Below, piece after piece: positions 27,203 through 57,756 of a stretch of 64,000 nucleotides of DNA. The notes under the pieces are model-generated. The model was given only the letters and a program-made list of their open reading frames with translations, did not search any database and was not told where the DNA came from. The translations under genes were made by a program, and so were the position numbers. Position 1 is the first letter of the stretch. The number at the start of each line of letters is the position of its first letter. Source of the DNA: Antedon mediterranea (taxonomy: Eukaryota; Echinodermata; Crinoidea; Comatulida; Antedonidae); the NCBI RefSeq assembly GCF_964355755.1, contig NC_092671.1, positions 1,902,501 through 1,966,500 on the forward strand, read 5' to 3'.

Positions 27203-27261
27203 GTTTTGGTTTTTTTATGCCTTTTTAAAAAACGTTTTCTCTTTTTTGTCCATCTACAGTT
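27203..27261 (-). other. NPHP3 5' UTR, exon 1 part
   Basis: Upstream of the ATG there is a minus-strand acceptor (ccacag) at 27262-27267, so this stretch is probably the coding exon's 5' UTR, joined to an unmapped non-coding exon further right. Confidence 0.45.
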
Positions 27262-33454: not shown

Positions 33455-36400
33455 ATGGGTATTATGTGTTGTTGCTACGTAAAAAAGAATGATGATTATG
33501 AGTCGTTGGACCCAAAGTCGGCAGAGTCTCCAGCTGAGCACCACAAGTATGGTACGTTAGAATCCGGTGGGTCGGCCAGACCACCTGAAACCAAACGCTA
33601 TCAATACCCTAAATCACCACTTAGACAAAAGTTTAGTTCGGATTCAGAACAGAGGTCAGTTAGACATGTCAGAGTTCATGTGTCGTCGTCTGATTCTGAT
33701 GAAAGTGACGATGATTCACCACCACCAATACGTGCTTATTCAAGTGCCCCAGCAAAAACCGATAAGCAGAAGAATGCGGCACCAATTACCAAAGAACACG
33801 CCCCAGTTGTTGCAAGCCCGTCTATCACGATTGAAGGTGAAGAAGAAGGATCCCCGAAGACTGTAGCTAGTGGCTTAGCCAGCATCTTCAAGCCTGAAGA
33901 TTCAGCAGTGTCGGAAGGAACTAAAACAGCTGAAGGAACTCGTGTAGATGCCGAAGGTGCCTCAGCTGCTGAGTCTACTGATCCTGAAGATTCTACCGGA
34001 GGACATTCCAATGTCTCTGGTAACCAGAATGGCAGCCTGGACAGCTTAAATGGCAGTGAGAAGAAGACTAAGAAGTCCAAGTCAATGGTTAGGAAGGTTG
34101 GATCGTCAATGAAGCGGGCTAGTAGAAAAGCAAGCAAATCAATGCAGAAAGGAATGGCTAAGATGTTGCACCCTAACAAGAGTAGAGACAGCACTGAAAC
34201 TGACGGTAAGAATTAAGATACTTAAATCAATACTTAATTAAAGAGGTATTGTCCTTCAAAAACATGAAAAATGAAGATTAATAAAATCAGATTTTAAATA
34301 GGCCATTTTGCAGTTTTAATAACAATTTAAGTATTTTTTGCTTTAAATTACATTTTCAGGCAATTATTTTAAATCCAGTTTTTGGTCAAAGTGAATAACT
34401 ATTAATGTGACATTAAAATGGCATATTAAAACAATTTTTTTTAGTTTAGGGGGACAATATATCTTTACGTCAATTCACCAAAAATCTTCTAGAGTCGACC
34501 TGTTTCGTAATTGAGCATTGAGCAGAAAATGTGTTTTGTTAAATAATTATTAAATAATTATGTCACTACTCGCACATGAGCCTGATAGTTAAATCTAAAA
34601 CAAGAAACACAACGATGAAAAAAGTATCACTTTCTACTGAAATATTGCATTATTTTAAAAAACAGATTGTCTGATCTCTCATAATATTTTAACCATAAAT
34701 TTATTATTATATTTCATTCCAATTTATATTTTTTATTCAATGCTGAAGTTATTTAGTCCAATACGTGATATTAAAATTCTTTCCGTCTTAGAGGTTGTGT
34801 AATAAAAGTTAGCAAAGACAGTAATGCCTAGTAGAGATTAAAAAGCACTTTACCCCGTAATCCTCAAAATGAGGTGTCACGTTTAAATTCTAATTACATC
34901 ACACACTTAGATCAAATATAAATTTTCGAACTTGAAAACAATATAATATTAATGAGTCTATAAATCTACAATCACAACACAATAAGAAGATTTGACTGAC
35001 CATGGGTGACTTGACTGACCGTGGGTGACTTGACAGAGGGCCAAGATTTGACTGACCATGGGTGACTTTGACTGACCATGGGTAATTTTCCAATGACTAT
35101 GGACTGACCAAGATTTGACTGTGGACCTTGTGTGACTTGACTGACCATGGGTAACTTGACTGACCAAGACTTGACTGATTATGTGTGACTTGACTGACCA
35201 AGACTTTACTGACCAAGACTTTACTGACCAACAATGAATTCATTTATTCTACAGTATTAATGTGTTATAGTGGCAAGTAACTTTAAATACCTAAATACTG
35301 CGTTCAAATCCAACTTTTTTACGAGGCAATGAAGCGTGGGAACTAAACTTCCAGAAATATTTATATAACCTTATAATAAATTTAAACTACAGTATCACTT
35401 TCTGTTTAGATTTCAATTTGAAAAATTTGCAATATAATAAGTTTTAACTAACAATATTTAATATATTTAGCAGTTTCTCATCTTTACTCGTCGGGATAGG
35501 CTCCATCTTATCAAAGAATCATTGATGACCTCTCTTGGACCTGATTGTGACCTCTGATCAATAAATAACTACATTTCCTGCAACAGAAGTGTCCTACTGT
35601 ACTTAGCCCAAAATTGCTAAATAAAAGAGAATGTGGTTTATGAGGAGATGCTTTAGAGTAACACATTTTGGGCTTATATTAGTGATATTTATATATTTAC
35701 AGTGAATAACAATGTGCATTAATACGTATTTAAAGATTTCTGATGATAATGATATTATTACTTAGTTATTCATTCTACAATTATTCAAACACATAATTCA
35801 CACATATCTGATTGTCTGTCGTTTGACATGGTGACAAACCTCGTTTGACATAACCTCAAAAGACTAGTATAATACTATTACTATACAATAGAGTTATTAC
35901 TATAATATGTTGATTACACTATTCTTTAATAATAAGCATTAAAAAGCTATTGTTTTTGAGACAATTAGATTTCCACATTTTAAACATTAAAAATGAAAAA
36001 AACCATGCAAGATACTAATTAACCATATGGTAAAATACAGTTTAAAGTGTGTATGTGTGTGTGTTTCATTTCACATAATGGTTTATAGGGAGTGGTCATA
36101 AACAGATGGTTTAAAAATATAAAAACTGTCATCTCATTAAAAAATATAATAATCTTGGCTTGGCCTGGGAGTGTGCTGTAGTCAAGTACCTTGTGGTAAA
36201 TTGTATATGATATTATTATTAGGCACTTTTTACAATACTGTATGTGAGTGGTGATTGTGAATAGCAGTTCTTGTTCTGATAAAGTCATCACCCAAAATGC
36301 TTTACTGTACATGACATATCCTTTTTTTCATTGATTAATCCTGCCACCAAAATTGTCAACATTTTGTTGTATAATTGGTAAAATGTTCCTAAATACACAG

Positions 36401-39400
36401 TTGCAAGTAAACAGTGCATGTGTCCGTATGTGTGTTCTTTAAGGGTCTATAGCGGCAAATCATCCGTTTATTTCAAAATAGACTTAAATACAGTATGTTT
36501 ATAATCAACTGCATTTCTGCAAAATTTAAATGGTTAATTTATTCACATTGTTATTTTTTTACAACAGAAAAAGGACCTAAAACAAAGTATTATCCACAAA
36601 TTGAAACTGAAATACTTTGAAACAATTTCATTAGGATCCAAATTGATGAATGTTTGCAATGTTTCTACAGATTACTGATTGGATCAGCAGAAAGTAACAT
36701 TTTACTCTTAAACTAAAACACTGTACTGTATCTTAATGAAACCAATCATAGTTTGGAAGATAAATGAAAAAGAATAATTCATGATTAATTTTAGTACACA
36801 GAAGCAGTCTTTTGTTATTAAATTATTTATGACAATGACTGTAGGATAAACTAGATCTTAATTAATTGTACAGAAATTCTGTACATTATTAAATATTAAT
36901 AGCCATAGAACGTACAGATCACCGTACTTCCAAATGTTTGTGGTCCCAACGCACGTACAATTGGTCGTAGTCCATCGCAGGTCCAAATTGCCGTCCACTA
37001 CAAGTCCAAATGGTCGGGCTCCACTGCATGTTTAAAGTATTAATTTGACCATTGGGTTACTGTAACTGATTACTAGGGAATTGTTATTAACTCTGTTATT
37101 ATCATCTACAGTTGAATCTGTGCGGACAACCATTGTAAGCTGATACTCCCCATTAAATGGATACGCATTTAAAAGCCTGTTCACACTTGTCTCCCTATCT
37201 ACCTACCGTAAAGCAGACACTTTCTCTAGACCTGTCTGTGTTAATAGCGTTTATCATAGATGGTATAGCAACTTTTTTTTGTATCTACTGTACTATAAGC
37301 CCCACCTCTTGAGAGCACGGGCTATTGTTAGTTTATCCAGGTAAGCTAGGCACAAATAGACTTATGACATTTTTGTACTCGGTATGATCTTTAAACTGAC
37401 TTTTTAATCTGTATGATATTATACTCTAGCTATAGTAATATAATAGTTCTATGTCTCATTTATAAAATATGTATTAGATCTAGATTGATTTGAATTTTAC
37501 GCACATTCAAAAAAAAAAATTTCATAGAAAAATGGGATTGGTAGTTATTCACGTCCTGTTATTTATAATCAACTTGAAGTTTTTATATAATAAATAATTG
37601 TAATACACAAAATACAGTAAGCAAGGTCAATTGTATGTATAAAAGGTCAACACTCCTTATTTTCATAAGTGATATAAAGTAAGCATTCAAGTATAGATAA
37701 TAAATATAATGAATCAGTGAATTCAAACAAGCAAATGAAAATAGACACCTGTAAATAGACACCTGTAAATATCTGTAAACATAACAAGTTCTAGTATTTG
37801 TTGTTATGTTTAGAAAAGGATATTTTAAAAGTACTTTCAACTCAAAATAGATCACAATTATTTCTCTCAAACCTCCTCTGACAAAGTAAAATGCACTTGT
37901 AAATGCTTATTGATAATTAAATTGTTTAAATACTAACTTTTTGTTTTTATTTTTTATTTAGATTTTCATTTTCATATAAAATTCCCAAGAGTGCTATGAA
38001 TATGAATCAAGATATTTAATTATTTTTTACAATTATTAAAATAGCATCTATTTCTCTATTCGTTATTTGTGTTATGTGTAAATGATTATTATATAAATTA
38101 TGGTGGATTAAAATATGACGATTGCAGAAATCAATTTGATTTCAACTCGCATAGATAAATCTGTATTAATTGAACGATAGAATGGATTACAAATGATAGT
38201 ACTGTAATAATTTAAGTATGCAATTTGGCATGGACTGCTAGTGCCGAGTATATACTTAAGGAAATCTGTCTAAGGGGGATCTGATCTAAAGGCAAGGTTT
38301 ATAAGAATGTTTTACATAACACATTCACTATTGATAATAATCAAATCTTTAATAATGGAGGCTCAAACAGTATGTGTTCTTTACGAGGTCGTATAGAATT
38401 TTAATGCAAAATTAAAGATTATGATAAAAGTAATGATGAACATTAGAATAGAAGAAGCTGGTTAAAGATTTATTTTCCCCAAAAATAATGTTTTCACTTA
38501 TAATATAAGAAAACAAAGAAATCCAATGTCTGAAAAACAATTTGACTATTTTAAGATTGCCTTTTGCAATTTGATATCTTTTGTTTTTGTTGTTTTATTA
38601 TCTTAATTATGCCAAGCAAAACAAATTTCCATTTTAAAGTGGACCAATGTCTTGAATCAATCGATGCAATGTTTTTTCAAATTCAATAACTATACTGTAT
38701 GTGACATTGAAATATTAAAATATATATCTTTAAAGAAGTTACTATGAAATAGCAACAGCTTTTAATACTACTATACAACAAAAAGGTTTGAATAATTTAG
38801 GTAGAAATGAGATCATCATCGGTCTAATCAGAACTAAATAATTTCTAGAAACCAAACCTTTATGAGGTTAATTAAAATTAATGTTGAAAGATAGCGTTTT
38901 CTGGCAACAAAAAAAAGTTGGTTTGTTCACAACAATATCACTGCTGATGCTCATAAGAACAGCAATCTTCTTCCACGTTACTATTTCCTACCAAATAATA
39001 ATAATAATAATATAGAAATAATAACATTTATATAATATACCCTTTAAAAAAATGTTATAATGCAAATTTCAACCTTTTACATAGGTTAGGCTTATGACGC
39101 CCTAAAGCTCTGTCTACACTATCAAACTTTATGTGACAAAAAATAGTCCATATGGAAATGATGATGTCATATCACTACAATATTTGAGCACATCACCTTT
39201 TTTTGTCAAACTAGTTTGATAGTGTAGACAGAGCTTAAGATACAATACGTGTAATGTAGCAATATTAGCAACATTTATATAATTTACTCTTCTAAAAATG
39301 TTATAATGCAAATTTCAACCTTCTTATTTTTTGACATAAATTTAGTCTTATGACTTAAGAAGATAATTAAGAGAAAATACGTGCAATATAGCAATAGTAT

Positions 39401-42400
39401 CACTTTCTATATGATTGTATAATTTTATTATACATTTCAAGGATTGTATTTGTTTCAATTTTTTATATTACTATAATAATATGATGAAATATGAGTCTAG
39501 TAATAATATTAATCCTTACAGTGGCTAATGAGGCTTTACGTACAAGAGACACATGGCAATTGAAAACTATTCCTTTACATCGTCTTGTTTTGTGTCAAAG
39601 TTTGGCGATACAAATATACAATAATGTGGTTTTTTTTTAAGCTTGGGTACAGGCATTAATTTTCATTTCATTGACATTTTTATTCCTAAACAATAAAAAA
39701 ACCAAATAATATATATAGCAATAAAATAGGAAAATGGAATGGGATACAAAATAAGCACAGTATGCTTTAAATGTGTAACCCTAAACAATTACTGTAAGAA
39801 TACAGTGTGTATACCACGTATAAACAGTTCTGAAAGGAACTGTTGATTTTGCTTGATGTTTTGATCAATATGCTTCAGGAGTGAGCATACCATATGTGAT
39901 GTACCACAAACTTTATATCAACATATTTGATTTCGCCATGCAAACCTTCAAACAATATAGAAATCCTGATGAAGAAGTATGAATTTATCTTAAAATTGTC
40001 AGGTTAAATACAGAATTTTTGAAAATTTTACCATATCTGGGGACACTTGTACACAAGAATGGGGTTGTACACTAGAATGGGGTTGTACACTACAGTGTGA
40101 ACTCCCCTACTGGTAAGAAAGCGTTTATTTTCAAGAAAACTGCAACAAAAATGTTCCAAAATTATGACAAATGGGGGAAATAAATTTGTTGCTTAAATCT
40201 ACTGTACTTTGAAAGAAAGATATTACTTTTTCTGAAATCAACTGTTACAATTATTGCAGTGCAATTATAACATATTAAAGTGCGGCAAGATTTATTTAAA
40301 TTGCTGTCTGTTCTTGTAAAGTGCAGAGAACTGATCTTGAATGCATCTCAAGTCCATTATGTCAGTCATTAGGTTTGACCTTTGACCCAAAAAAGATTTC
40401 AGTTCTTGCATCTTTAAATTGAGTAAAACGTTACTTGTTAATTTTCTTTATAAGATGTGACAATTTTTATTTTAAAGGCAAGTGTAACAAAAATGTCAAT
40501 GATGAATTTTTTAAACCAAATATAAATAATATGATAAATGATTTATGATGGCTATACAAATGTATTCATACCTTTAAATATGATATAGAAATAAATATTC
40601 CAAGTATAAATATAGGGGCAGTCCAATAGTTTTTAGATAGGGTACTAACCTTACCACAACATCAGTACCAAAAGTTCATGAATGTAATTTTACCCACTTT
40701 CAAACACTTACTATAGCCAAAACCTTGTATTAAACTTTTCCACCCAGTCAAATTTGAACACAGTAGCCACCCAAGAAATCTCTGAGTACCTTACATCTAA
40801 TTTAATTGACATGTCGTTCTTAGGTCGTAGGTCGTGTGTGTGTCTTAAAGTGAAAGCTACCTACTGTTTTTTCTCTCCCGCCCCTTCTCTCTGAAGGACA
40901 CTCAAGACTTGTGGATCCATGTACATTATATAATTAACTCAGTATGATTCATTACTTACTGTATAGGTCTTAATATAATCATTTCATTTCTTTATTTTCA
41001 CAATACTGGCATTTTAAAACAAAAATTAAGATTCTTTCTTTATTTCCATTTATCATACACAATCATAAACATACATAAATAATCATAGTACAAAGAGAAA
41101 AAAAAAAAATGGATTGATTTATTTTTTTAACTGTGTTAAACTAGAAGGCATATTATCATATTATAGTATTATCAATTGTACAGCGCTTTTAAAAGCGCTA
41201 TATAAATCCAAATTAAATTAAATAAAAAAATATTGTAAGAAATTTAATAAAATCTTTTCTCTATAAGTATAATAAGATCTTTATACTTTCATTACAAGAG
41301 TCTAAACATTGGAATTGACATTCATTTTGAATATGTTATTGAGCATTTTAATTACGCAAATGGTAAATTATCAAGTAGTATGTATACATAACTATGATAC
41401 ACAACACAATACTTCTATTTTTAGTATGCAGATTAGATGTGCTGTAGTACACAATCTGTGACTGAAGGATTTTGGCCGCATTATCATCATATTCTGACTT
41501 TGTTATTTTATTGTATATTTCTTCCGCTTTTTTATTAATTGCAGACAAAAGCAATGCACAACACAAAGGCCAACAAGACAGTGATGATGATGAAACGGAG
41601 TGGAGTCGAGGTAATTAAACAAACCTATTTATGTTTACAGTACGTGACCACGGACATGTGTTCATAAACAAAGTGTTGATTAATACTACTGTATATGTAT
41701 TGTTTGTAGGTGTTCATCAACACTCAACATTCCTGTCAGGGCTCGCAGAATCCTAAAATATTTGGTTGCCCTTCGGGCAAGTAGGTTTTGGATTTTGGTT
41801 GCCCTCATCATTTTTTTACTTGCCCACTATTTTAGCTTAATTTTAACGTTTTATACCGCGACTGCACCGCGAAAAAACGTCGGTAAAAAACGACTATGCT
41901 TAATACACTGTGGTGTTTTTTTCGATGGATTTTAAAGTAGTGAAAACAATTTTTCAAATTTTTTCAATTACACAGTGATGTAGGCCGATCTTTTAAGAAC
42001 ATTTTACAGTAATTTATTTTCTCATACGATCCTCCGTACAAGAGTTGCGATTGTTTAATTAACATGGTGTCAGGCCAAAATTAAAAAATATTTTAATAAC
42101 TAGGCCAAAATTTAAAAATAGCTTGTTTCCGGTTGAGCGCCCGGGTGGAATTTTTTTCAAAAAAAAAAAATTCTACCCGCAAACATTTTTGGGGGAATTT
42201 CCCCTATTCATCAGATTGCGTAGTAGTAGTAGTAGGAGAGGACTGTCTACATCTTTTTGTATTTCATTATATATAAATATTACGTGTATTTACGATCCAT
42301 ATAAATAATAATTATTAAGGTACGATGTTTAGCGTTCACAGTTGTTTCGTTTAGTTTCAAACAATGCGATCAAAAAAAGGCATGTGAAGCCAGGCCCAAC

Positions 42401-45400
42401 GGGTAAAGACCCTAATACAACAGCAAGCACTTAGCAGCACTAAGGCGCGGACGGAGAACACAGGTTACAAAAACAATTTGTTTGTAGGCCTTAACTACAA
42501 CCATGGATTAAAGAATAGAAGGATATGCATCGACGTGAGATCAAGGGTTCCTTGACTCTCGCCGACAGACCGCGGACCGCCCACAATGTTACAGTTTAAT
42601 TAACCGCATGGTAACAACGAAACGGTCGCGTGCCTAATATATTGTTTACTGCACATGTGCAACGACATTTAACCTTGTTGGCTACTACGCTTCTTTCGCG
42701 CGTTCTTTGGTGGCATGATGTTTGTAGATGGTCAACTATTGACTATGTTGGTTTCTGCCGCGATTGATCTACGCTAATGATTTTTTTATGATGATTAAAG
42801 TAGCATTTTATGACCTGTAGTAGCCCTACATCTGAGACAATAACTATTAGTTGTCTCATTTGTTGTAAAATTACAAAATCAGCAAGAATGCTAGCCTAGC
42901 TAGGCCCAGGCCTTGTACTAACTAGGCTAAACTGGGCTAGTAAACCCTATGATTTGCCGACATTGATACTGCCTAGGTAGGCCTAGGCTAATCTTAAATA
43001 CTCACCGTTGTCTTACTTCTTGTGTGAATAATAATAATAGGTAGGCCTACTTCGTTTGTTCGTGATCAAGTTTGCCCTGCGTGTACTTTTCAAAACGACC
43101 GCTAGGTAACGAATCGCAACTATACATAGCCAGCCAATCCCGGATCAGGGATCGCTGTTTTCATTCAATTAGGCCCGGTGATTGGATGTGATGTGGATGA
43201 CATAACCACTAGCCAATCACCAGGCACTACAGTTTAAATATAATCACATCGATAATTAAGGAGATTTATGAAGAAACCACTGCTTAGCCATATATTAAAA
43301 AACACGATTGTTGTATGTCTGAACACCGGCCACGCTAACAACATACATGGTCAAATGCATAATTTAATATTCTATAGATTAACGCAATTTTTAATGACAG
43401 AAGATGGCAGGCAAATAATGATAATTCAAATATAAAAATGGCATATTTTATTAATATTACCAACTACCTAAAATTACCAGTCGTAAGAAAGTGAACTTTT
43501 CGTAGTCCGATTGTGATGAAACTAAAACAGAATTATTCAGCAATATATGTTTGTTATCAATTAATCATCGACGCAGACATGTCAATAGAACATTCAGACT
43601 GCGCATACGATTTCTACATGGTTACGTTTTGGTCTCAAAAAATGTAACAGTTGATTCGCAGCGTTTTACAGAGGGCCGCGGTTAGAGACACGGAGTTCAA
43701 TGAACGTGTTTGTTTGATTGGCAGCAGTGCTTTAGTATAGGCAAGCGCGTTGTAAAATCGTTTGATGTCACCGTCGATGCATATCCTTCTATTCTTTAAT
43801 CCATGCTACAACTATTCATACACAGAGTGTTAACCACGGTAAAAAATCAAGCCAATGACATTATGTTGTAGAATATAAATTATTGTTATTTTCCGAGTTT
43901 CGATTTCTGAAGCTTTTTTGTTAGTATAATCCATATTCATAAGAATTCAAAACACGGACGGACGCCGACCCCTCTCTCTCTCTCTGTTTAGCCTTCTGCA
44001 CGTGTATTGTGGACTATACCATTTCCTTGAGTTCGGTAAAAACGCGTTTGTTAATTTAGTGTACGACGTCGTTAAACAAGATTTTTCGATGATCTGTCGG
44101 CTGGATTATTGAGGTGGGTGCGATAAAATATAAATATAATATACTTCCAACGATCTTCGGGTTGAGGTACCGGTTTAACTTTAGTACTAAAAGTTGACAC
44201 CCCTAATTTTACACGTATAATGGAATGGACTACACCATGCAGGAACGCACATGGTATTTTCATATCAGAGGGTGCGTGTACGTCAAAAGGAATTGTTTTT
44301 CCAACGACCGATCCTTCGTACTCACACGTACGACGACGTCGTGTGAAATTTCTTATCAGAGGGTGCGTGTGCGTCAAATGGAATTGTTTTCCCAATGTGT
44401 ATTGAATCGCGTGTGTTTGTTGATCGGATCGGCGCGGCGGGAGGATAGGCTGGCTAGGACAAGGAGTGCGTGTAATTTTTTTTTCAACGAAGGCGGCTAG
44501 CTCGATTATTGAGGCGGGGGTGGTGCGACTTTAATACTTTCAGTGACCTCCGATCGAGGAACGTTTTTAGCTTTATTATTAAAAGTGTACACCCCTGTAT
44601 TTTAATGTACTATCTATACCATTATTTACCACGCACGGCGGCCGGGACGATATTGTTTTGGTTATATAAATATGTTCGATGTTTTCTCTAAATGCGTTTA
44701 GGGAAATCCCCTTGCAACGAAGACAGGCGATAGTTTTGCGTCTCGTCCGATATTCTTGACATTATTTTCTATCTACTTCAGTGGTTTTTATTGTGGTAAA
44801 ACTCGGGAAGGGCACTCACGGCCAACACAAAAAAAAGGGCAGGCCAGTAGTGGCCGTGGGTGCTATTAATTTTCGAGGGCATTGAGGCCAACTGGGAGGG
44901 CACCGACGGCACTGGCCGCGGTAAAATTCGAGGGCTGTGGTGTCCTGAAATCCCTTGAAAACGCTATGTTATTTCTGTTGGTTACGCTTCGTTGCACGGC
45001 ATTGTTTGTCATCGATCGAAGATGTGTTCCGTTTCGTGAATGAATTCACGTGGGTTTACTTTGGGAGCAAAAACGTTTTGCTTCTATTGTGCAATGAAAT
45101 TCCGAAATCAAGCTATTTTGCGATATTTAAAATGTAGTGGCCTAGACATGGCACTAATTATCTTACAATTATTTAATAGATATATCTAAAATATTGCCTA
45201 TAGAAATGTAGGCCTCCTAGGCCTAAAAAGTTTAAACAAAGTACTTATGAAGGTGATGAGCTTGTAACGCGTTGAAATCATAGGGAAGAAAAAAAAAACA
45301 AACATCAACTGACGTCCGTCTACGTGACGTGAAACAATACGCATGCGTATAGCAAAAAACCTCACAGCAGCTGCCGTACGTAGTAGGAGCACATGGGTAT

Positions 45401-48400
45401 GGTGTGTGGAGAGTGCGGGCTTGTGGAAGTTTACTTGTTGTTTCAGTAGAAGCTCGCACAGGTTGGATAAAAACAACCATCTGCTCGCACAAGTTGGTGA
45501 TTGAAAACAACACAAGGGAACTGTGCCGAATTGTGGTGAAAACCACGTGCTCCGCCAAGTTGGAGTTTTTGAAAGTTGAACTCTCGGCGATACCCGAAGA
45601 AGTGTATTATTTTCAATGTTGATAATAAAAAATATACTGTAACTATTTAAGTATTCAATGTATTTATTAAATAAATTATTAGGCCTATTAAATTTATATT
45701 CTGTAATATTTATTAAAAAAATGGTAGGCCTACTTGCCTGTGTTAAAAACATCGGCCGCCGCCTATTTGGCACAGACAAAAAAAAAAAAAAAATTACGTA
45801 TCTATTATAATTTAATAATATACTGTATTTTCAATACAACTGTACATTTGAACAATAATTACAGTAATTCAGCAAATTATTTATTACACACAAAATACAT
45901 AACATGAATGTAATTAAACATAGGCCTAATCTACTATCAGGCTGTAGGCCACATAATTAATACTAAGTAGTAGATTCAGATTTTATTACCACCATAAAAT
46001 GATGTCGATAATTGAGAAAAACAAAAACATACTAGCCCCTATTTTATTTGGTTTATAGTATAACTAGGGAGTTGTTAATTAGAAACTCCCTGGTATAATA
46101 ACTTCAAATAAGTTAAAAGCCGAGAGTTCAACGCTTCCTATTTCGCGATCAATGGATGCCGCAAGAGACCGCGTGCTATATGACAGACCTGGAAACTCTA
46201 TACGCAACGACTTGATACGCCCGACTGCATAGAAACACATGTTTTGGCTCCTGGAGATAACGTTCCATACCACCGAATTCCGATCCATACATTTACTTAA
46301 CAAACACTACACTGGTCTCGACGTCAAGAGAATTCGTTCGTGCGCGACTATTATTTTCATTGTTACAGTTTTTCACAACCCCTGTAAAACATCGTGGACA
46401 TTTTCGGTGATTTTAAGAGGTTGCCCGTCGGGACATGACATGTTAAATTTTAGTTGCCCGACGTATTTATTTGGTTGCCGCGGGACGTCGGGCAAGCGAT
46501 TCTGCGAGCCCTGCCTGTGTATTTATAAACACTACCTGTGTATTACTATCACTTCATTAACACTACTCTGTGTTTAACACTACTATGTGTTTAACACTAC
46601 TACGTGTTCAACACTACTACGTGTTCAACACTACTATGTGTTCATTAACACTACTATGTGTTCAACACTACTATGTGTTCATTAACACTACTCTGTGTTC
46701 AACACTACTATAGTATGTGTTCATTAACACTACACTATGTGAGCATCAACACTACTATGTGATCATCAACACTACTATGTGATCATCAACACTACTATGT
46801 GTTCATCAACACTACTATAGTATGTGTTCATTAACACTACTATGTGATCATCAACACTACTATGTGATCATCAACACTACTATGTGTTCATCAACACTAC
46901 TATGTGTTCATCAACACTACTATGTGTTCATCAACACTACTATGTGTTCATCAACACTACTACGTGTTCATCAACACTACTACGTGTTCATCAACACTAC
47001 TACGTGTTCATCAACACTACTACGTGTTCATCAACACTACTACGTGTTCATCAACACTACTACGTGTTCATCAACACTACTACGTGTTCATCAACACTAC
47101 TACGTGTTCATCAACACTACTACGTGTTCATCAACACTACTACGTGTTCATCAACACTACTACGTGTTCATCAACACTACTACGTGTTCATCAACACTAC
47201 TACGTGTTCATCAACACTACTATGTGTTAGACCAAGATTTATGTGTGTAAATAAAGGAGATTGATTACCAAACATTTTAGTGGACCTGTAGCTTAAACCA
47301 ATGCCAGGGTCCAGGGTTCAATCCTGACCTAATGCAAGTGTTGTCTCATCATTCGTCATCACTCCCTAAGCCTCAAATGGAACTTGATTTATATGATAAA
47401 TATAAAATACTTTATCCATCCTGTAATTGGCGAGTTGCTAGCTGTTGGATGCGTATGAAAATATTTAACAATAAGTGAGTTTTCCTTAATAAGCGACGAT
47501 ACATCAATTATTGTTTAAATGTCTCTTATACTACGTTCCTTCCAGTTTAATATTAAATTTTAAAATCTTTAATCTCATGAGTCATAACCTTGTTAAAGGC
47601 CTTGTAAAGCCACAGTATTTATACACAAGTAAAACTCATCCACATTGCATAAGGGTTAGTGTACCCTGGGTTTTGATAAGGGACGATGCTAAAGATTGAC
47701 TGAGTCACAGCGGTCATTGTCCAGTACCATGATTCAATGAATTGACTACAGTAGGATAAAATGAAAAGGAGTTTGTATTGAAATTAGGTCTTCACTTGAC
47801 CCTTGATTTTTTGTTCCCATTATTATTCACATATTATATAATATTATTCAAGTCATGTTAAATAATATCTAACCACTTAACTCTTGAGCTGTCAATTTTA
47901 ATTTAATTAAACTGGAGTCTGTAATCTTTGTACTAATGATGCTTATTCTAGTTAATATTTCCCACGAGATGGTATCACTGCTATAACATGCTATGTACTT
48001 GTGGACTATATGCAATAAAACAATAAAATTAATTCAATATTGTAATTCATACTTAATAACGATCATGTATTAAATTACAAATTATAATGTTTACAAACTT
48101 TACAAGCGCATAAACAAAAAACATGCCATGAAATTAATTAATTTTAAAATAAATTTTAATCCAATAATATTCTCATCATTAGAAATATAAAAAAAAGTAT
48201 CTAAAATACTACCACAATACAATAGACCAGTCTTCTTAATTGGGCAACCCGGTTTACATGAATAAATAAATATATTTTTTAAAATTAATAATAAATAATA
48301 TTAATAAATAATAAATGTTAATATAATAACAGTATACTACTGTAGTACTATTTGTAATACATATTTTATTTTTGAAAAAAAACGGAAATGGTTAAGTAGA

Positions 48401-51400
48401 AATCGAAGGCATTTGACCAACATTTTGATTGAGTATCTTGTGGCCTCTATATGCATCCTAGCGGAACGCTTGTTAATGACGACATAAACACAAAATTTAT
48501 CTGCACATGTGCAGAATAATTTAAATGTGCTAATTACAGGTTATGCAGCAGGAACGCTATCTGAATCATATGTAAAAAAAAAATCTGCATTATTTAAGCT
48601 GATATGTCTCAATTCACTGTGACGATGTATTGATTTCAAGCACGCTAATAATTTAGCCCGTGAACCAACCATTTTGAGCCTGGCTAAGATTCTGAAGCTG
48701 CAGGGAAGGAGATGGTAGCGGTTTGATAGCTTCATATTGTAATAGTAGTTAGCAGTCACAATTGGAAACTGTATTTTTGGCGTTTTATGCGTTGGATATG
48801 GGAGGATTAATATCAGATCAAACGGATCAGACAGAGATTACAAGTAAATTTAGTTATCTGTATTTTGACAAATTATAATCAATAGTAGGCCTATGCATTC
48901 ATGGTATTACTTAAAGAGTGTTTGTAATGTTAATATCCCTATGTTTACCAATGATGTATAATATTTGTAAATATCAGTAAACTGAATTACAGTAGTTTAA
49001 TAAATTGTATTTTGTGTCAGTATACAGCTGTGCCAATATTCATCAACTATTCTTCATATAACCACACATTAAATAATAACATAAATAAATATATCAGGTG
49101 GTCTAATGGTAAGATAATAAACAGAATCTCTTTTAAGATGACTTTTTTCTTTTCTCTACCGCTAGTTCGAATATTTTCAAATTTTTATTTTTCAGATTTA
49201 CTACTAACAATGTAAACATTGAAAGTAGAGATTTGCCCTTTAAAAATGTCATCATTTTTGTGACATTAAGAAAATTGGAAAAATTGTCTTTAAAATTGAT
49301 ATTAACTCATTGTGATTCTACCTGTATTCTTATGTGTTTTTGTGTCAACATCAATGACATGAATGATAAATGACATTAATATTCAATCCTTGTAGATAAC
49401 ATGATCCTATCTTTTATTAATGTGTTAATTATATGTCTATGAATCATGTATTTTCTACTCCCACAACAAAAACTGAAATTACTGCTACAAAATTTTAAAT
49501 TACATTTGCCATTTTTCCATCATTCTCTAGGGCTTTGATGCTTGCTTTAAAATTGTAACTGTAAATTTTCACATTGTAAAAAGAAATTAATCAAAAACAA
49601 TTTATGATACATTACATGTTATGACTACATATACATTGCCATGTCATTTTGTTTGGGTATTCTTCTCAGAAACAATTATGTAGTGCTCATTGTCTTTAAA
49701 AACTCATTAATTGTCTGACATACAGTGCAATATGAATCAAGCCTTCTCGCTGTGTTGAATAAATTGAAACGAAAATGTCATAAATGTAAATGATTCTCTT
49801 CAATCGAAGAACTCTACTTTCTATTGTTAAATTCGGTATTCATAAAGGCATACTCTGATGACGCAGTGAAATTTATTACGATTTCGGTAATAAATGTTTT
49901 CAACCTTTAAATCTTGTGCATCACATGGCATGATTATGTAGAGTACAGTCATAGGTAGATCGGGGATGATAACCGGCCTAGCAACACACCTCCTTTCCCA
50001 CCGCCCCAAAATTTGGAAATGTACAATGCAAAAGATTGGACATTACAGTAGGTTCAGTTCAGCACTTGTTTTTACCGTTTTTAGGCCATGCCCCTCTCTT
50101 TTCCTCTTTCCCCTTATTTATAAATCCTATCTCCGCCACTGAATCAGATATTATATATGGATTAAAATATATAAAACTACAGTTGCATATATGTATTATT
50201 GACATTGGATGAGCGGGTGGAACTGTTTATGTAGCCATAATATTGGCAAAGGTTCGAGCCTCACTCGCTCCATGGTTCTTATCGGATAAGGACTATAAAC
50301 TGTAGGTCCAGTGTATACAAAATGCTCATGTGCACTTTAAAGAACATAGTTTCATCTTTGAAGAGGTTACCGCAGTGTACTAGTTCACACAGCCACTACT
50401 TGAAAAGTAGGCCTTCTTTTAGTCCTCCTAGTTGATTGTGGAAATTACAATGATGAAGATATAGATTAAAACGGTATCAATGTATTATTGCTTGTGTCCA
50501 TATGATTATGACATTCAAGATTATGGCCATGCAGGATGAATACAAACATACAGTACATGCTTTAAAGTAATAGCATGTTTCCGTTATTTTATTGGTCAGG
50601 CATTCTACTGTAACTAATTATGTTGGTGAGATTATATTGTTTCACATTTATACTTTGAACTTTGTCTTTTCCTTGTTTACAATTTATAATTTATGTATAA
50701 CAAATATTGATGTATTGTTATTGTAATAACAATGTCTACAGTTAGCTCTCCCAATACCAAACTTTTCTTTAAAGGTTCCAAATTCTTCTTTACCATTAAA
50801 AACGCATTTAGAATACCAGACTTTACAGAAAACATATATTGTTGTCCCACAATATAGGCTAGCCCAAAGGTGTATTGGGAGAGTTGACTGTATATAAAGA
50901 TCATATATTATACTAACATTAACTTCATTTCATGTATAGATGATTCATCACTGGTTACACCTACTAGCCCAATGTCACCTGCCAACTTATTGCCCGAACC
51001 ACCTAGCCCGAGATCCCCACGGTCCATTTCACCAGCTCATAGCCCAATATCACCCGGTCGTCACAGAACAATGTCATACGGACGCAGAAGTCCTTCATCA
51101 CCATCTGCGCATCAACCGCTAACGAGAATGAGCTCCGATAAAATGCAGTCAAAATATGCAAGAGGTAGTGTACATTTTATGCCATTCCAATATGTGGTAC
51201 CACAGTATATGAATGAACCAATCAGCATAACTTCTATGACTAACCTATTTTCAGAGTAAGGCTCTGTCTACACTATCCAACGTTATATCCATATATGGAC
51301 ATGATGATGTCATATCACTACATATTTAAGCATCACATTTTGTTGTCATACAATGTTTGATAGTGTAGACAGAGCTTTAGAAATCACAATGTCGAATGGT

Positions 51401-54400
51401 AAATACACTTTGGTAGCACATTCTCAATGCTAAGTCATTACTAATCTTTATTCTTTGGTATATCATAAGAAATTACACTTAAATTACTCCTTGTGTTTAA
51501 AAAAGCAACATGCCTTACAAGTTTCCTACATGTGTTTTCTTTTAATAAAATCATAAGGTGTAGATGACCTATGTGCAAATGTACACGTTGTCGATTTTCC
51601 ACTAGATGATTTAGTCAGCTTATACACATGCCCATTCATTCTTCCAAACACCTCTCTACGCATGCATGCAAGCTGACGCTTTCAATTCGCACAAACAAAT
51701 TTTTCAAGTGGAATATTGTCTTAAGAGCGCCCCCTTAATGCTTGTATTTTAGAATTGCACATCAAGATATAAAGTTTTCTAGTTTGTCCCTATAACATTT
51801 TAAGTGATAAATTATGTATTTTGCATTAAAATAACACTTCATATACATTTTAAACATACATAGATGTAACATAATTCTGTGTAATATAAACTGCAATGCA
51901 ATGTCACTATTTACACTATCATCATCGCTGTCGTTGTTGTCATCATAGTACTATTTTATTAAGTGTTGTCTTTATTTATTTCAAGTTATCCATGTCAAGT
52001 CAAAGGGCCCCAGAGGGCCAATAAAACCCCAAAAAACAAAGTTAAAATATAAAGACAATACAAAACCCATAATGGCAACCTAGCAACCACACCTAACTAT
52101 TCCAGGCACCTCAAAATGTTTCAAATTTGATTCCAGTTTTAAAGCAAAATATTTTATATAACAATGACTTTTTACTGAAAGGAATAAATAAATAAAATAT
52201 ATCAATATACTATAAATCTTCATTAATTCACAACAATTTTCCTGTGATAGATGTCATGGTAAATTAAAAAAACGAAAAGAAAAAAAAATTGAATGACTTC
52301 ATAAATATTAAATTATAGTTGAATTTTATAAAGCAAATTTGTCTTGCCATTGTTGATATCAAATGTCCTCTCATGGGTTTATTTAAGTCTCATTACAACA
52401 TCATAACAAATGCAATACATCATATATGTTTATGGAAATTTATTCAAATAATATAATCAGTTTTCAATTTAAACACTCCCTAGTTGTAGATTAAAAATAT
52501 TAGTATTTTAAATTTAAATTGAAAAAGAAGTTATTTATGGTTATTGTTGCGCATACATAATTTTGAAAACTGGTTACGGCATGTTATGGCATAAAAGGCA
52601 TTGGTTCAAGACGTGTGCCATGTTACCATAAGATACTTTACTCTCATTTTACCATGTTGCCATAGTATCTAAAGCAAGGTACTTTACTTTCACAATTAAA
52701 AAAGAGTAGGGGCCTGGGGCCGGATTTATCAAACTTGCTTAGCAAAAAAATCGTCTTAACTTTGCCCTAAATCCTTGATTTTGCTTAAGTCAGATTTATC
52801 AATATATCTAAGCAAAAAAATTTGCTTAATTTTGTCTTAAATCTAAGACGAACAACACCCTGCCTTAAGATGAAAAATTTCTTTCTCTATTTCAAATAAT
52901 AAAAATATGGAGATAAAATGTTATAGCGCCACCATCGCTAAGAGAAAAAAGCTAATGCGCACACGTAAGCAAGGATTTTTCGTCTTAAGACATAATTTGC
53001 TGCCCTCTAGAGTTTAATTTTGTGCATGTGCAAAGTAAAATTTACCTAAAACAATTTTTCTGCTAAGACATTGCTAAGACGGTTTGATAAATAAGATTAA
53101 GTTATTTGCTTAAGCACTTCTTAAATATTTCAGCTTAAGCAAAAATATAAGCAAATATTGATAAATGCCAACCCTATACTCTGAGAGACGGTCTTGTACT
53201 AAAGAGGTCGTCACCCAGTATTAATGTTTTTAATGATTTTGAATATAAACACAATATTATTTTGTTAATTTCAATGAGTGGAATTACCACTGCAATTTCT
53301 AAACACAATTTTTTTGGTGAAATCTTATTTTTTAGAAAGAATGTTGGAGCGAGAGAAACAATGGAGTAAAATAGAAGCTGAGGCAGAAAGTAAAGAAGAT
53401 GTACAGAAGACAAGTGCTATTGGCCAGGCATTAAATGTAAGTCACCAGATAGATGACTGTTCTTAGCGGAATTTGACAACATAATTTACGTAAAAGGAAA
53501 TAAAGTATGATTAAGAATATCTCATTTTTCGTTGTTATGCAACCCTCCTAATTATTACTAAAAGTAGCATAACAACGAAACATTCATTTGTACTTACTTT
53601 TAATTAAATTTGTTTCTTTTTTTTCTCTTGCTTTTTCAAAACACTCCTCTTGTGTGAGCGCCCTCTATTATCTGGTTTTATTTTATTGTAACTTGTCAAT
53701 GTTCAGGTGCTCATAAGTGCTAATTCTGTTTAATAATAAAATAGTAAAAAGATAATAGGATTAAATCATGTACTTGTGATGTATGAATAATGTATATCAG
53801 GATATAGGATTCAGTAGATTAGCATACTAATGTTAAATTCATTAGATAGATAGTACGCTGTATGTATTAAAGCAACCTGTTAGGCATGAGTTTGCAATCG
53901 TTAAATTTTCTTTTTTCTTTTGCCGCCAAAATATTAGTAATCTTCTAATATTATTGATTGATTAAGTGTTGTTTTTACCAAACATGATTTCTTTTCACTT
54001 AGTGATGCTGTTTACTAACCCTGTGGGATGTTTTTTAATACTCTTGCATTAAATTTGTTCAAATACCAAGGTTATAACTTTAAAAAACAAGTGGACCCAT
54101 CACTCAAGTAATTGTATTAACTATCACTGTAGATATTCCATATTTCCATGTGTGGTGTAACACTAACAGGGTATATACATGATAAATAGATGATGATTGA
54201 TGTTCCAATAAATTATTTTTTTCAAAGACAATATTATTTTTTTTTAAACTTCTTAGGTTCTTACAACACTTATGAATGTATTAAATATTTGACAGATAAA
54301 ACATCTTGTTTACATAAAATGGACATGTTGAAACATCTGCTCTGCTCATTATACAGAATAATAAATATAATGCAAAAGATATGTCTAGAAGAGAGAGTTC

Positions 54401-56736
54401 TTAAGACAGTGGAACCGTAGTTAGCCATAACATTGCCAAGTGTTTTGAGGCTCACTCGCTCCATGGTTCTGGTGGTAGAACGAGTCTTCTCGGATAAGGA
54501 CCAGTGTAGACACTTTTAAAGAACCTAGTACAAGTAAAAAGTCCATTCTGGACCATTCTACCCTTCGTTGTGCCAGCTTGATTGGAGTAGTTGAGCTGTA
54601 GCTTAGTGGTTAGCATGCTTGCCTTCCAATTCCAAGGTTCAATCCTGACATAGTGCCAGGGTTGTATCTCACATACCCTAAGCCTCAAATGAGACTTGGC
54701 TTATAAGCATGAACAAATTAAAAATAGTTTATCCATCCTTTAATTGGCGAGTTAGTTGTCTGGCTGCTTCAAAGTCTGAAATTATTCAAAATAAATAATA
54801 ATTATAAATAATGTTACAAATTCAGAAATAAAGCTAGGTGTTGCATACATGTACATCGTATTAGATATTAATTTCCGTTTTTAATTTTCTTTGGACTTTA
54901 ATCTTATGTGGAGGCGTAGATTACATTCATTTCCAGTTATAGCAGTTCTCTTGTGTCGCCTATTAACAATTTCGCACATTACAGAGAGACAGTTTGAACA
55001 CTCTGTAAATATAGACCTATCCTCTGCAACAATAATCTTTCAAGCATTACGTATGTTAAGAATGTTGTATCAAATGTTATTTTTCTCTTATGTTGTGAAG
55101 AAGGCAAATGGTTCTTCTCCAGGACAACACTTTTATTTTATAATATCAGGTGAAAACTGACCGCCTGTCTCCCTAACAGTCTGCTCCCTAAAGCCTGTTT
55201 TCCTGTCGACGTTATTCGACGCTATCGTTAACAATAATCGGCGATTACCTGCTGACGTTATCATTTCAACTTGATCGTTTGGAAACGATCGTCGTTGAAC
55301 TGTTAACAATCAACGATGATAGCGTCGAATAACGTCGACAGGAAACAGGCTTTAGACTGCCACCAAGGCTTTCACCTTTGACCTTTCTGGGATGCTACTG
55401 TACACCCCATCCCCTCAGATGTTGAATAGTGAATTGTGAGCAACTCCTAATTTATCCCGCAACTGAACCTGCACAGCAAAATATTAATTCTGTTCAATTT
55501 TTTACCTGGTAAACATTCATCTGGTAGGACCATCTTTTTTTAGGGGTGGTTGTTCGAAAAAGATATAACATTTTCTTGATGATTTTTAAGTTTCTATAAT
55601 TTAATATTTTTATAATTAATAATAAACATAAACATTTATTTTTAAAATGTTACTATAGTATATAATAATCAAATATTTTTTTACTGTGTATGCAAATTAA
55701 AAATATGTAAATTAATTAACCTATATAATGTTGAATTTGAAAGCACGTTTCAGTATGTGAATTAATTAGCTGTGCTTGACAGCACGGCCGTAGAGGATTG
55801 AAAGAACGTTTCAACTATTATAAGATAATTCTCTTAACAATCTTCTTTTTTATGTACTAAATCAACAATATCAAATAAGTTATAGTATTATTTAAACACA
55901 GAACTCAATTATTTATAGGTGATTAATTTAAAATTGTTGGAATTTGTATCTGTATGACATTGGTAATATAAATGATAAAGATTAATATTGAAGAATTTTT
56001 CTGTGAGAATTTATTACAGCCGATTATCAGTACTGTTGTAAATGTACCCAGTATCATAAGCAATGCGTTTCACATGTGCTCCCTGTATCATACAGTAGAT
56101 CTGAAACTAACCATTACGCTCTGTCTACATAACTAGTTTAACAACAACAATGTGATGTGCTCAAATACGGTAGTGATATGACCAAATATGGTAGTGATAT
56201 AACATCATCATGTCCATATAATTTGGGCACATCACATTTTTTTGTCACATAAAGTTTGATAGTGTAGACAGAGCTTTAACCTTCCATGATACAGTATACT
56301 GTACTGAGAATCACATGTATATTAACGGTTATCATCTTCTGTTAATGACGTACTCAATTTTATGAACGAATAATATTGTATTTTGTGTTTTATAATATAT
56401 AGTTATTTTTCTATACTGTTTGTAATTGTGCCTCTTTTACTTTTAATTATATATGTATATTGATTGTAAACAAACGTTATCAGCCAATGGCTGCTGTTTT
56501 GTACGTGTTTTTAAACCGAAATAAATAAATTTTAAAAAAAATTTGTATTAGTAGTACATCATGTATATTTATTAACAGAATTGATATTGCTGTTTTTTTT
56601 TTAGGCGGCTTATGAAAGAGGACAGAGACTAAAAGAAGTAGAAGAGACAAGTGATGCAATGCGAGAATCTGCGTTTAGTTTTGCTGAATCAGCTAAACAG
56701 TTAAAAGAAAAGAAACGAAAAAGCGCCAAGTATTAA
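33455..56736 (+). CDS. Acylated-type R-SNARE-like coiled-coil protein, unrecognised
   Basis: Five coding exons: 33455-34205, 41545-41610, 50940-51164, 53336-53436 and 56605-56736. All have GT-AG borders and keep phase (1,1,1,0), giving 424 aa. The start MGIMCCCYVKK combines Gly2 with a Cys triplet, the pattern of N-myristoylated and palmitoylated proteins. Residues 12-200 are Ser/Pro/Glu-rich and probably disordered. Residues 203-245 are strongly basic (KKTKKSKSMVRKV). 273-347 carry repeated SP motifs (PTSPMSP, PPSPRSPRS). From 348 a coiled coil begins; the last 43 residues contain YERGQRLKEVEETSDAMRES, which aligns with the second half of an R-SNARE motif of the VAMP and tomosyn type, with R386 at the zero layer. 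There is no C-terminal membrane segment and no CAAX box. It could be a soluble or lipid-anchored SNARE regulator, by analogy with tomosyn and amisyn. Function is inferred only; no named orthologue is recalled. Confidence 0.8.
34985..35236. repeat. TTGACTGACCATGGGTGAC minisatellite
   Basis: Irregular units of 14-19 bp built from TTGACTGACC and ATGGGTGAC or AAGA, in intron 1 of the SNARE-like coding region. Minus-strand ORFs here (HGQSSHPWSVK type) are by-products of the repeat. Confidence 0.8.
36045..36066. repeat. GT microsatellite
   Basis: Short run of GTGTGTGTGT interrupted by ATGT. Confidence 0.6.
39106..39235. mobile_element. AGCTCTGTCTACACT MITE, copy 6, intact with TAA duplication
   Basis: Best-preserved copy. 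AGCTCTGTCTACACTATCAA at 39106 and TTGATAGTGTAGACAGAGCT ending 39235, flanked by TAA at 39103-39105 and 39236-39238. A 3-bp TAA duplication fits PIF/Harbinger-type MITEs. No coding capacity. Confidence 0.9.
41701..41736. repeat. Left remnant of the 20-bp minisatellite
   Basis: GGTGTTCATCAACACTCAAC matches the unit of the array at 46530-47232. It directly precedes the inserted CAGGG element, so the array was split by the insertion. Confidence 0.7.
42502..43805. mobile_element. 1.3-kb element with perfect 34-bp inverted ends, nested in the 4.8-kb element
   Basis: The arms at 42502-42535 and 43772-43805 (starting CATGGATTAAAGAATAGAAG, ending ATCGACG) are perfect complements. CTACAAC flanks both sides (42495-42501, 43806-43812), a 7-bp duplication. 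Termini starting CATG with an arm of this length recall P-type elements, but that class is a guess. No ORF above about 60 codons is seen inside. Confidence 0.8.
43974..43987. repeat. CT microsatellite
   Basis: CTCTCTCTCTCTCT inside the 4.8-kb element. Confidence 0.7.
46530..47232 (+). repeat. 20-bp minisatellite ACACTACTACGTGTTCATCA, about 33 units
   Basis: Units at 46530-46800 are irregular (17-26 bp, ATGTGTTCATTA variants). From about 46840 the period is exactly 20 bp. Units from 46960 to 47220 are identical (ACGTG form) and the last reverts to ATGTG. Because 20 is not divisible by 3 and the unit has no stops, three forward frames stay open with 20-residue repeats; these are by-products. 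Confidence 0.95.
47278..47470 (+). mobile_element. tRNA-derived SINE, family A, copy 1
   Basis: A-box-like CTGTAGCTTAAACCA, B-box GGTTCAATCCTGACC at about 47316, and a body with CCCTAAGCCTCAAATGGAAC and TTTATCCATCCTGTAATTGG. The body is shared with 54590-54790. Confidence 0.75.
49096..49182 (+). repeat. tRNA-like SINE head or tRNA pseudogene
   Basis: A-box-like GGTGGTCTAATGGTAAG and B-box-like CTAGTTCGAATAT, about 55 bases apart. The intervening bases do not fold into a good anticodon arm, so it is not called as a functional tRNA. Confidence 0.4.
50208..50410 (+). mobile_element. tRNA-derived SINE, family B, copy 1
   Basis: GAGCGGGTGGAACTG with B-box GGTTCGAGCCTCACTCGCTC, then CTTATCGGATAAGGAC and a tail with TTTAAAGAACATAGT. 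54412-54540 and 4585-4748 share parts. Confidence 0.7.
51260..51376. mobile_element. AGCTCTGTCTACACT MITE, copy 7, SNARE-like gene intron
   Basis: GGCTCTGTCTACACTATCCA at the left and TTTGATAGTGTAGACAGAGC at the right, with the core TATGGACATGATGATGTCAT. It begins 95 bases after an exon. Confidence 0.9.
51985..52110. repeat. Probable retroelement 3' fragment
   Basis: GGGCCCCAGAGGGCCAATAA followed by A-rich words and CACCTAACTATTCCAGGCAC. The style resembles 6880-6960, but homology is not demonstrable by eye. Confidence 0.25.
52716..53174. mobile_element. MITE built from TTGCTTAAG/CTTAAGACG repeats, 0.46 kb
   Basis: Ends GGCCGGATTTATCAA and TTGATAAATGCCAACC are imperfect complements. The interior is mirrored: TTGCTTAGC, CGTCTTAA and TTTGCTTAAG on the left against TTAAGCAAA and CTAAGACG on the right. 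It lies in the intron before the exon at 53336. Confidence 0.65.
54412..54560 (+). mobile_element. tRNA-derived SINE, family B, copy 2
   Basis: TGGAACCGTAGTTAGCCATA, GAGGCTCACTCGCTCCATGG and CTCGGATAAGGACCAGTGTA correspond to the copy at 50208. The next SINE follows directly. Confidence 0.65.
54585..54795 (+). mobile_element. tRNA-derived SINE, family A, copy 2 (best preserved)
   Basis: A-box GAGCTGTAGCTTAGTGGTTA, B-box GGTTCAATCCTGACA at about 54637, body CCCTAAGCCTCAAATGAGAC and TTATCCATCCTTTAATTGGC. The head is a recognisable tRNA 5' half. Confidence 0.8.
55189..55354. mobile_element. Palindromic MITE, TAAAGCCTGTTTTCCTGTCG termini
   Basis: The left AAGCCTGTTTTCCTGTCGAC and right GTCGACAGGAAACAGGCTT continue inward as GTTATTCGACGCTATCGTT and its complement. 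Nearly the whole 166-bp unit folds on itself. A shorter relative lies at 61085-61166. Confidence 0.85.
56117..56275. mobile_element. AGCTCTGTCTACACT MITE, copy 8 (longest)
   Basis: CGCTCTGTCTACATAACTAG left end, AATATGGTAGTGATAT core, CACATAAAGTTTGATAGTGT and AGACAGAGCT right end. Confidence 0.85.
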
Positions 56737-56874: not shown

Positions 56875-57312
56875 TTGTAAAAGACATATTGGTAGTTTGT
56901 GAAGGTTATGCCCCATGAAGGTTCCACTTCAATGGTAGATGATGGGACACGCTCTTACTGGTGGATCCGATTTAGAAGTCCCACGTCATTGGTAGATGTT
57001 AAGACACACTCTTACTGGTGGATCCGATTGTGAAGGTCCCACCGCATTGGGTACTTTTAGGTCATGTTTCTGGCAGATCCAATTGTGAATGTTCCACCTC
57101 ATTGGTATAGTTAAGACACGCTCTTACTGGCGGATCCGATTGTGAAGGTCCCACCTCATTGATAGTTGTTAGGACATACTCTCTCTAGTGGATCCGATAA
57201 TGAAGGTCCCACCTTTTTGGAAGATGTTATGATACCTTTCTGGCGGATCCGGTTGAGAAGGTCCCACCTCATTGGTATAGTTGTTAGAACACGCTCTTAC
57301 TGGTGGATTAGT
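56875..57312 (+). repeat. Tandem repeat of about 60 bp in the SNARE-like 3' UTR
   Basis: GGTGGATCCGATTGTGAAGG and TCCCACCTCATTGGTAGATG recur about seven times with CACGCTCTTACTGG between them. Units vary by substitutions and small gaps. Confidence 0.85.
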
Positions 57313-57605: not shown

Positions 57606-57699
57606 GAGCTGTCTACACTATTACACTTTATGAACAAGATGATGTCATATTATACCATATTTGGGCACATCATACTTATTTGATAGTGTAGACAGAGCT
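57606..57699. mobile_element. AGCTCTGTCTACACT MITE, copy 9
   Basis: GAGCTGTCTACACTATTACA left end and TTGATAGTGTAGACAGAGCT right end, short core. Confidence 0.8.
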
Positions 57700-57756
57700 T
57701 TACTCATTGGAAAAATATGCTTACACACAAGTGTACCAAGGCAACAATTTGTTACA

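Follow-up and report, generated by a model that had tools for sequence, protein, structure and literature searches.

SNAP-25 and SNAP-23 are SNAREs held by a cluster of palmitoylated cysteines, which lies in the linker between two Q-type motifs, and they carry no N-terminal glycine signal. Ykt6 is a lipid-anchored R-SNARE without a transmembrane segment; it has a longin domain and a fusogenic role, and its lipid is described as a C-terminal prenyl group beside the SNARE motif. Tomosyn (STXBP5, R.Reg) ends in an R-SNARE motif with no transmembrane segment, and a polybasic region at its C-terminus contributes to inhibition (PMC10965968). Amisyn (STXBP6) is a small protein in which an N-terminal, membrane-binding PH domain is combined with a C-terminal R-SNARE coil that lacks a transmembrane segment (PMC10670990). 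Tomosyn and amisyn are both described as entering or obstructing Q-SNARE complexes while being unable to fuse membranes (PMC6143360; PMC9715400). Fungal Vam7, which is not an R-SNARE, attaches to membranes through a PX domain at its N-terminus rather than through acyl groups and has no C-terminal transmembrane segment (PMC2639358).

Here, we describe a gene (gene A, 33455-56736, plus strand) in a 64,000-nucleotide window of the genome of the crinoid Antedon mediterranea (NC_092671.1, positions 1,902,501 to 1,966,500). We consider it fairly probable that its product is a soluble, non-fusogenic regulatory R-SNARE that is held to the membrane by its N-terminus and belongs to a small family, comprising genes A and B and a third SNARE exon, exon C, that is probably related to tomosyn. 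Gene A resembles tomosyn in having a C-terminal R-SNARE motif without a transmembrane segment, an intron four codons before the zero-layer arginine (as in the tomosyn copy on C7 of the same genome) and a basic C-terminal tail; it differs from tomosyn in the lack of a WD40 match, in its acyl-type N-terminal anchor and in the degenerate N-terminal part of its motif. With amisyn it shares small size, a predicted membrane-binding N-terminal part and a C-terminal R-SNARE coil without a transmembrane segment, but the N-terminal part of amisyn is a PH domain, whereas that of gene A is MG followed by CCC. The combination of a C-terminal SNARE motif, no transmembrane segment and N-terminal membrane attachment is also that of Vam7, lipid anchoring of an R-SNARE is found in Ykt6, and a cysteine cluster is found in SNAP-25 and SNAP-23. 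The first-pass annotation knew of no described family with this order of parts; amisyn and Vam7 are precedents for an N-terminal anchor joined to a C-terminal SNARE, and it is the acyl (MGxxCCC) anchor that is new. No SNARE with an MG-plus-cysteine N-terminus was found among the best-matching titles and abstract openings of the literature searched, and 'MGCCC' did not occur there together with 'SNARE'; subscription papers lay mostly outside both searches.

Gene structure and the adjacent paralogue

The five exons of gene A, whose earlier coordinates proved exact, give an open frame of 424 amino acids when spliced (Table 1). All four introns have GT...AG ends, and their phases are 1, 1, 1 and 0. 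Position 33455 is the first in-frame start, because an in-frame TAA lies upstream and no AG, and hence no hidden acceptor, occurs between it and the ATG. Coding potential was scored by codon usage, with 1534 codons of neighbouring frames as the training set (NPHP3-type exons plus a 624-codon frame whose identity is less certain) and stop-free stretches from the non-coding DNA of the window as the null. None of 1500 null stretches scored as high as exon 1 (90 codons each, against the 250 of the exon). The share scoring higher was 1.1% of 8000 for exon 2 and 3.3% of 3000 for exon 3, and for exons 4 and 5 it was 0 of 8000 in each case. The least certain element is the 66-nt exon 2, one of two candidates left in its intron after a simple splice filter; without it the frame remains open and encodes 402 amino acids. 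An additional exon of exactly 63 nt was searched for and none was found.

Table 1. Positions of the features discussed. Numbers without a prefix are window positions; those with the prefix C2 are contig positions.
Feature	Position	Strand	Description
In-frame TAA	33434..33436	+	21 nt 5' of the gene A ATG, read from the sequence
Gene A exon 1	33455..34205	+	carries the ATG, MGIMCCC, an acidic, Ser-rich region and the polybasic stretch; phase-1 end at GTAAGA
MGIMCCC	33455..33475	+	matches N-myristoylation pattern; three adjacent Cys are possible palmitoylation sites; acylation predicted
Polybasic stretch of gene A	34058..34174	+	codons 202-240, weakly amphipathic
Gene A exon 2	41545..41610	+	66 nt, phase 1-1; encodes an acidic segment and may be alternative
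Gene A exon 3	50940..51164	+	phase 1-1, Ser/Pro-rich linker
Gene A exon 4	53336..53436	+	phase 1-0; encodes a charged helical segment with layers -7 to -2 (A,E,D,K,I,A)
Gene A exon 5	56605..56736	+	R-SNARE layers -1 to +8, basic tail, stop codon
Codon of zero-layer Arg	56617..56619	+	R386 (R364 without exon 2), from the spliced translation of gene A
Possible MITE copies	39107-39235, 51258-51381, 56117-56279, 57607-57704		found by eye
Gene B	C2:1968207-1966576	minus	four exons, phases 1,1,0, 212 aa
Exon C	C2:3934922-3935068	minus	third SNARE exon, same type as A/B; first exon not found

A paralogue, gene B, was found with the C-terminus of amisyn as a probe, which matched four places in the genome: exon C at C2:3934955 (E 0.0013), an exon of gene B (0.12), the C7 tomosyn (0.34) and gene A (0.62). 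Gene B lies tail-to-tail with gene A (last base C2:1959236), and its own last base is 76 bp beyond the end of the window (C2:1966500). Its protein starts MGCCCSNDSES..., continues with a polybasic stretch and ends in a C-terminal R-SNARE. An in-frame stop is located 18 nt 5' of its ATG, and an AG intervenes. The coding scores of its four exons were beaten by 0, 3.0%, 0.1% and 0 of 3000 null stretches, those for the first exon (113 codons) being 80 codons long.

Gene B bears directly on whether the five exons of gene A would be joined in vivo. It might be supposed that two different genes supply the MGIMCCC exon and, 19 kb further on, the SNARE exons: the frame of exon 1 stops 11 nt past its donor, the introns are long, and exon 3 has a weak donor, fitting 5 of 9 consensus places. 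However, in gene B the two ends share a strand and lie within 1.6 kb, and its phases (1,1,0) match the 1,1,1,0 of gene A, which makes a faulty gene model very improbable, and a two-gene error was rejected on this ground. Because the paralogue repeats the whole order of acyl motif, polybasic stretch and R-SNARE, it gives strong independent support for that order being one gene, as the first-pass annotation had proposed.

Several other elements were observed around these genes. A Nephrocystin-3 (NPHP3) gene, with NPHP3 Pfam domains in several exons, occupies window positions 18174-27214 on the minus strand, divergent to gene A; its apparent first exon starts MGTGSS, also a myristoylation-type start. 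Further away, a 624-aa open frame (1203-3077, minus) has a weak CCCH zinc-finger match below the cut-off (E 0.009). A 20-bp tandem repeat of 34 copies (46553-47228) lies within the second intron of gene A, and a 57-bp minisatellite of approx. 7 copies (56916-57308) begins 180 bp past its stop, perhaps in the 3' UTR. A short repeat with inverted ends (CTCTGTCTACACTATCAAAC type), possibly a MITE, was noticed in the introns and flank of gene A. Upstream of gene B, two exons on the minus strand (C2:1974550-1975703) encode a nuclear-receptor DNA-binding domain (PF00105), which we take to be thyroid-receptor-like.

The N-terminus and the linker

The protein A order is MGIMCCC, polybasic stretch, Ser/Pro linker, charged helix, SNARE-like helix and basic tail. 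The N-myristoylation pattern PROSITE PS00008 comprises a glycine at position 2 with a small residue at position 6. Protein A has both, with cysteines nearby, so that, with gene B starting in a comparable way, the acylation-type N-terminus proposed earlier holds as a prediction. Residues 209-246 carry a net charge of +11, and serine and proline make up 44% of residues 276-345. No transmembrane segment is present: the highest Kyte-Doolittle mean over 19 residues is 0.56, in agreement with the first reading of the gene, and the C-terminus consists of ten residues beyond layer +8 followed directly by the stop, with no C-terminal anchor. WD40 propellers were not detected; PF00957 was the sole Pfam family matched by the 402-aa form at E<=10. 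The Sec3-type PH domain (PF15277) gave no match in protein A or protein B at the same threshold, and the N-terminal 312 residues of protein A yielded a single match, at E 1.

The R-SNARE motif

The last 90 residues of protein A match the Pfam Synaptobrevin family (PF00957) with 27.2 bits (E 3.5e-6; cut-off 26.4). Among PDB matches of protein A at E<=10, 13 of 14 are R-SNAREs, the top ones being VAMP4 (0.0055) and tomosyn (0.0079). For gene B, the whole protein scores 30.5 bits, above the cut-off and close to the end of the tomosyn of the same genome (30.8), and all 20 PDB matches at E<=10 are R-SNAREs, with Snc1 best (2.5e-5) and tomosyn not among them. A profile built from A and B retrieved R-SNAREs in 18 of 19 PDB matches at E<=1 (VAMP4 2.2e-6, Snc1 2.5e-6, tomosyn 0.001). 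The gene A exons are absent from the nine genome-wide PF00957 matches at E<=0.001. The whole protein in its 402-aa form reaches 23.4 bits (E 5.3e-5), less than the 26.4-bit cut-off, as might be expected of an ordinary coiled coil that resembles R-SNAREs by chance. Such a likeness is nevertheless scarcely credible: the next Pfam family on the last 90 residues has an E of only 0.17, the PDB matches are nearly all R-SNAREs for A and entirely so for B, gene B passes the Pfam cut-off, and an intron place is shared with tomosyn. The comparison is thus SNARE-specific rather than one of generic coiled coils.

In the 424-aa form with exon 2, R386 is the zero-layer arginine, as first assigned; it aligns with the arginine of VAMP4, tomosyn and VAMP2, and the zero-layer arginine is also present in gene B and exon C. 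The R-SNARE register claimed for the motif is supported. Layers -3 to +8 of protein A (I,A,A,R,L,V,S,M,A,F,A,L) are in register with VAMP2 and tomosyn, and the profile and PDB matches agree, but layers -7 to -4 read A,E,D,K, with charged residues at -6 (E), -5 (D) and -4 (K), so apolar residues do not extend across -7 to +8 and the motif is incomplete. The tomosyn of the same genome, taken as a control for layers -7 to -1, has M,V,S,V,I,T,L. Judged by these residues, the C-terminal two thirds of the motif is a good R-SNARE and its N-terminal part is degenerate. Protein B has V,A,V,R,L,L,T,L,A,F,A,V at layers -3 to +8 and T, A, K and N at -4, -5, -6 and -7, respectively.

The VAMP2 C-terminal 'Vc' peptide offers a model for a protein in which only this well-fitting part is at work. 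The helix of protein A might engage Q-SNAREs, or complexes that are already partly zippered, along their C-terminal half alone; it would pre-order them and would then promote or clamp a late step instead of competing for the acceptor site. The charged layers -4 to -6 of protein A beside its fitting layers -3 to +8, and the K and N at -6 and -7 of protein B, are in line with such a role. On the other hand, protein B is small or apolar from -5 to -1, and its best PDB match begins 30 residues before the zero-layer arginine; we regard this role as unlikely.

Relationship to tomosyn and other R-SNAREs

A phase-0 intron lies exactly four codons before the zero-layer arginine in gene A, gene B and the tomosyn gene of the same genome, and exon C begins after an AG at the same place. 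Four VAMP-type exons (C3, C4, C6, C7), those among the nine genome-wide PF00957 matches that span the place and a set without Ykt6 and Sec22, show no intron there (0/4); as a tomosyn trait, the intron was observed in this one genome only. The last-but-one exon is of phase 1-0 in A and B and, by reading of its acceptor, in tomosyn. The C7 gene reads as the tomosyn of this genome by its last exon, which matches tomosyn in the PDB at 7.5e-6 and then VAMP4 at 0.065; no propeller part could be confirmed for it, since five upstream frames gave no Pfam family and one upstream frame matched only Lgl2 relatives, weakly (E 0.74). Since the tomosyn end on C7 comes with its own two last exons, gene A was rejected as a displaced end of that gene. 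A reading of gene A as a VAMP was likewise rejected because of its missing transmembrane segment and different intron place.

Amisyn has reportedly been called vertebrate-specific, in the title of a 2020 paper by Kondratiuk. Gene A was not accepted as an amisyn, there being no PH match, and an amisyn of vertebrate type was not found in the genome, where a single Sec3-type PH locus was detected, presumably EXOC1.

Comparison of the last exons gave pairwise scores of 83 for A-B (z 10.3), 86 for B-C (z 11.8) and 64 for A-C (z 7.0). The scores with tomosyn and synaptobrevin were 74 (z 8.6) and 70 (z 11.2) for A, and 58 (z 6.1) and 59 (z 7.1) for B. By residue similarity alone, A and B appear no closer to tomosyn than to VAMPs, because VAMP4 and Snc1 come out ahead of tomosyn with the A+B profile and none of the 20 PDB matches of B at E<=10 is tomosyn; a profile whose alignment contained the tomosyn PDB sequence was circular and was excluded from the evidence. 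Mainly because of the shared intron place, we think it likeliest that A and B either descend from a gene of tomosyn type or captured the last exons of one.

For exon C, no convincing upstream exons were found, and the 19.8 kb upstream, including the exon itself, contains no MGxC start. A degenerate-looking second copy of exon C was noted approx. 6 kb upstream of it. Exon-by-exon searches with A, B and C as queries, which can miss weak members, returned no further convincing relatives. This lone SNARE exon would suit a different account of the family, in which protein A is an acylated membrane scaffold whose coiled coil pairs with some other partner, and a shuffled tomosyn-type last exon has left the SNARE register behind as a relic; so would the degeneracy of the motif towards its N-terminal side in A and the concentration of most of the signal in the last exon. 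Preservation of the zero-layer arginine and of fitting layers +1 to +8 in both A and B, despite only 32% identity between their SNARE regions, makes a relic rather improbable, less so than a faulty gene model but more so than action on the C-terminal half of Q-SNAREs.

Proposed mode of action and its significance

We propose that A and B are probably decoy-type R-SNAREs related to tomosyn, in which an acyl anchor takes the place of the propellers, or of the PH domain of amisyn. In protein A, the glycine at position 2 is probably myristoylated and C5-C7 are predicted to be palmitoylated, while the polybasic stretch may add binding to acidic lipids. The long Ser/Pro linker, probably disordered and phosphorylatable, would reach out, and the C-terminal helix could then occupy the position of the R-SNARE, or pair next to it, in a Q-SNARE complex of the plasma membrane, the membrane to which protein A itself would be attached. 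As no membrane anchor adjoins its SNARE helix, protein A could not itself drive fusion; it may instead hold back or tune VAMP-driven fusion, like tomosyn and amisyn. The earlier suggestion that it could hold or block Q-SNAREs is a plausible hypothesis. The C-terminal tails of both proteins A and B are basic.

Tentatively, and with slightly less than even confidence, A and B may be viewed as belonging to a family of invertebrate decoy R-SNAREs, not described before, that carry two kinds of acyl group at the N-terminus and have at least two adjacent members; the family would have drawn its SNARE exons from tomosyn and would perform in these animals the membrane-tethered task that falls to amisyn in vertebrates. 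A second, membrane-tethered kind of decoy would represent another way of building a fusion brake, in which a long linker separates the anchor from the SNARE helix instead of the two being adjacent. It would thereby become directly testable whether the target membrane is where decoy SNAREs act from, and the natural partial motif of protein A would allow one to ask which SNARE layers inhibition requires.
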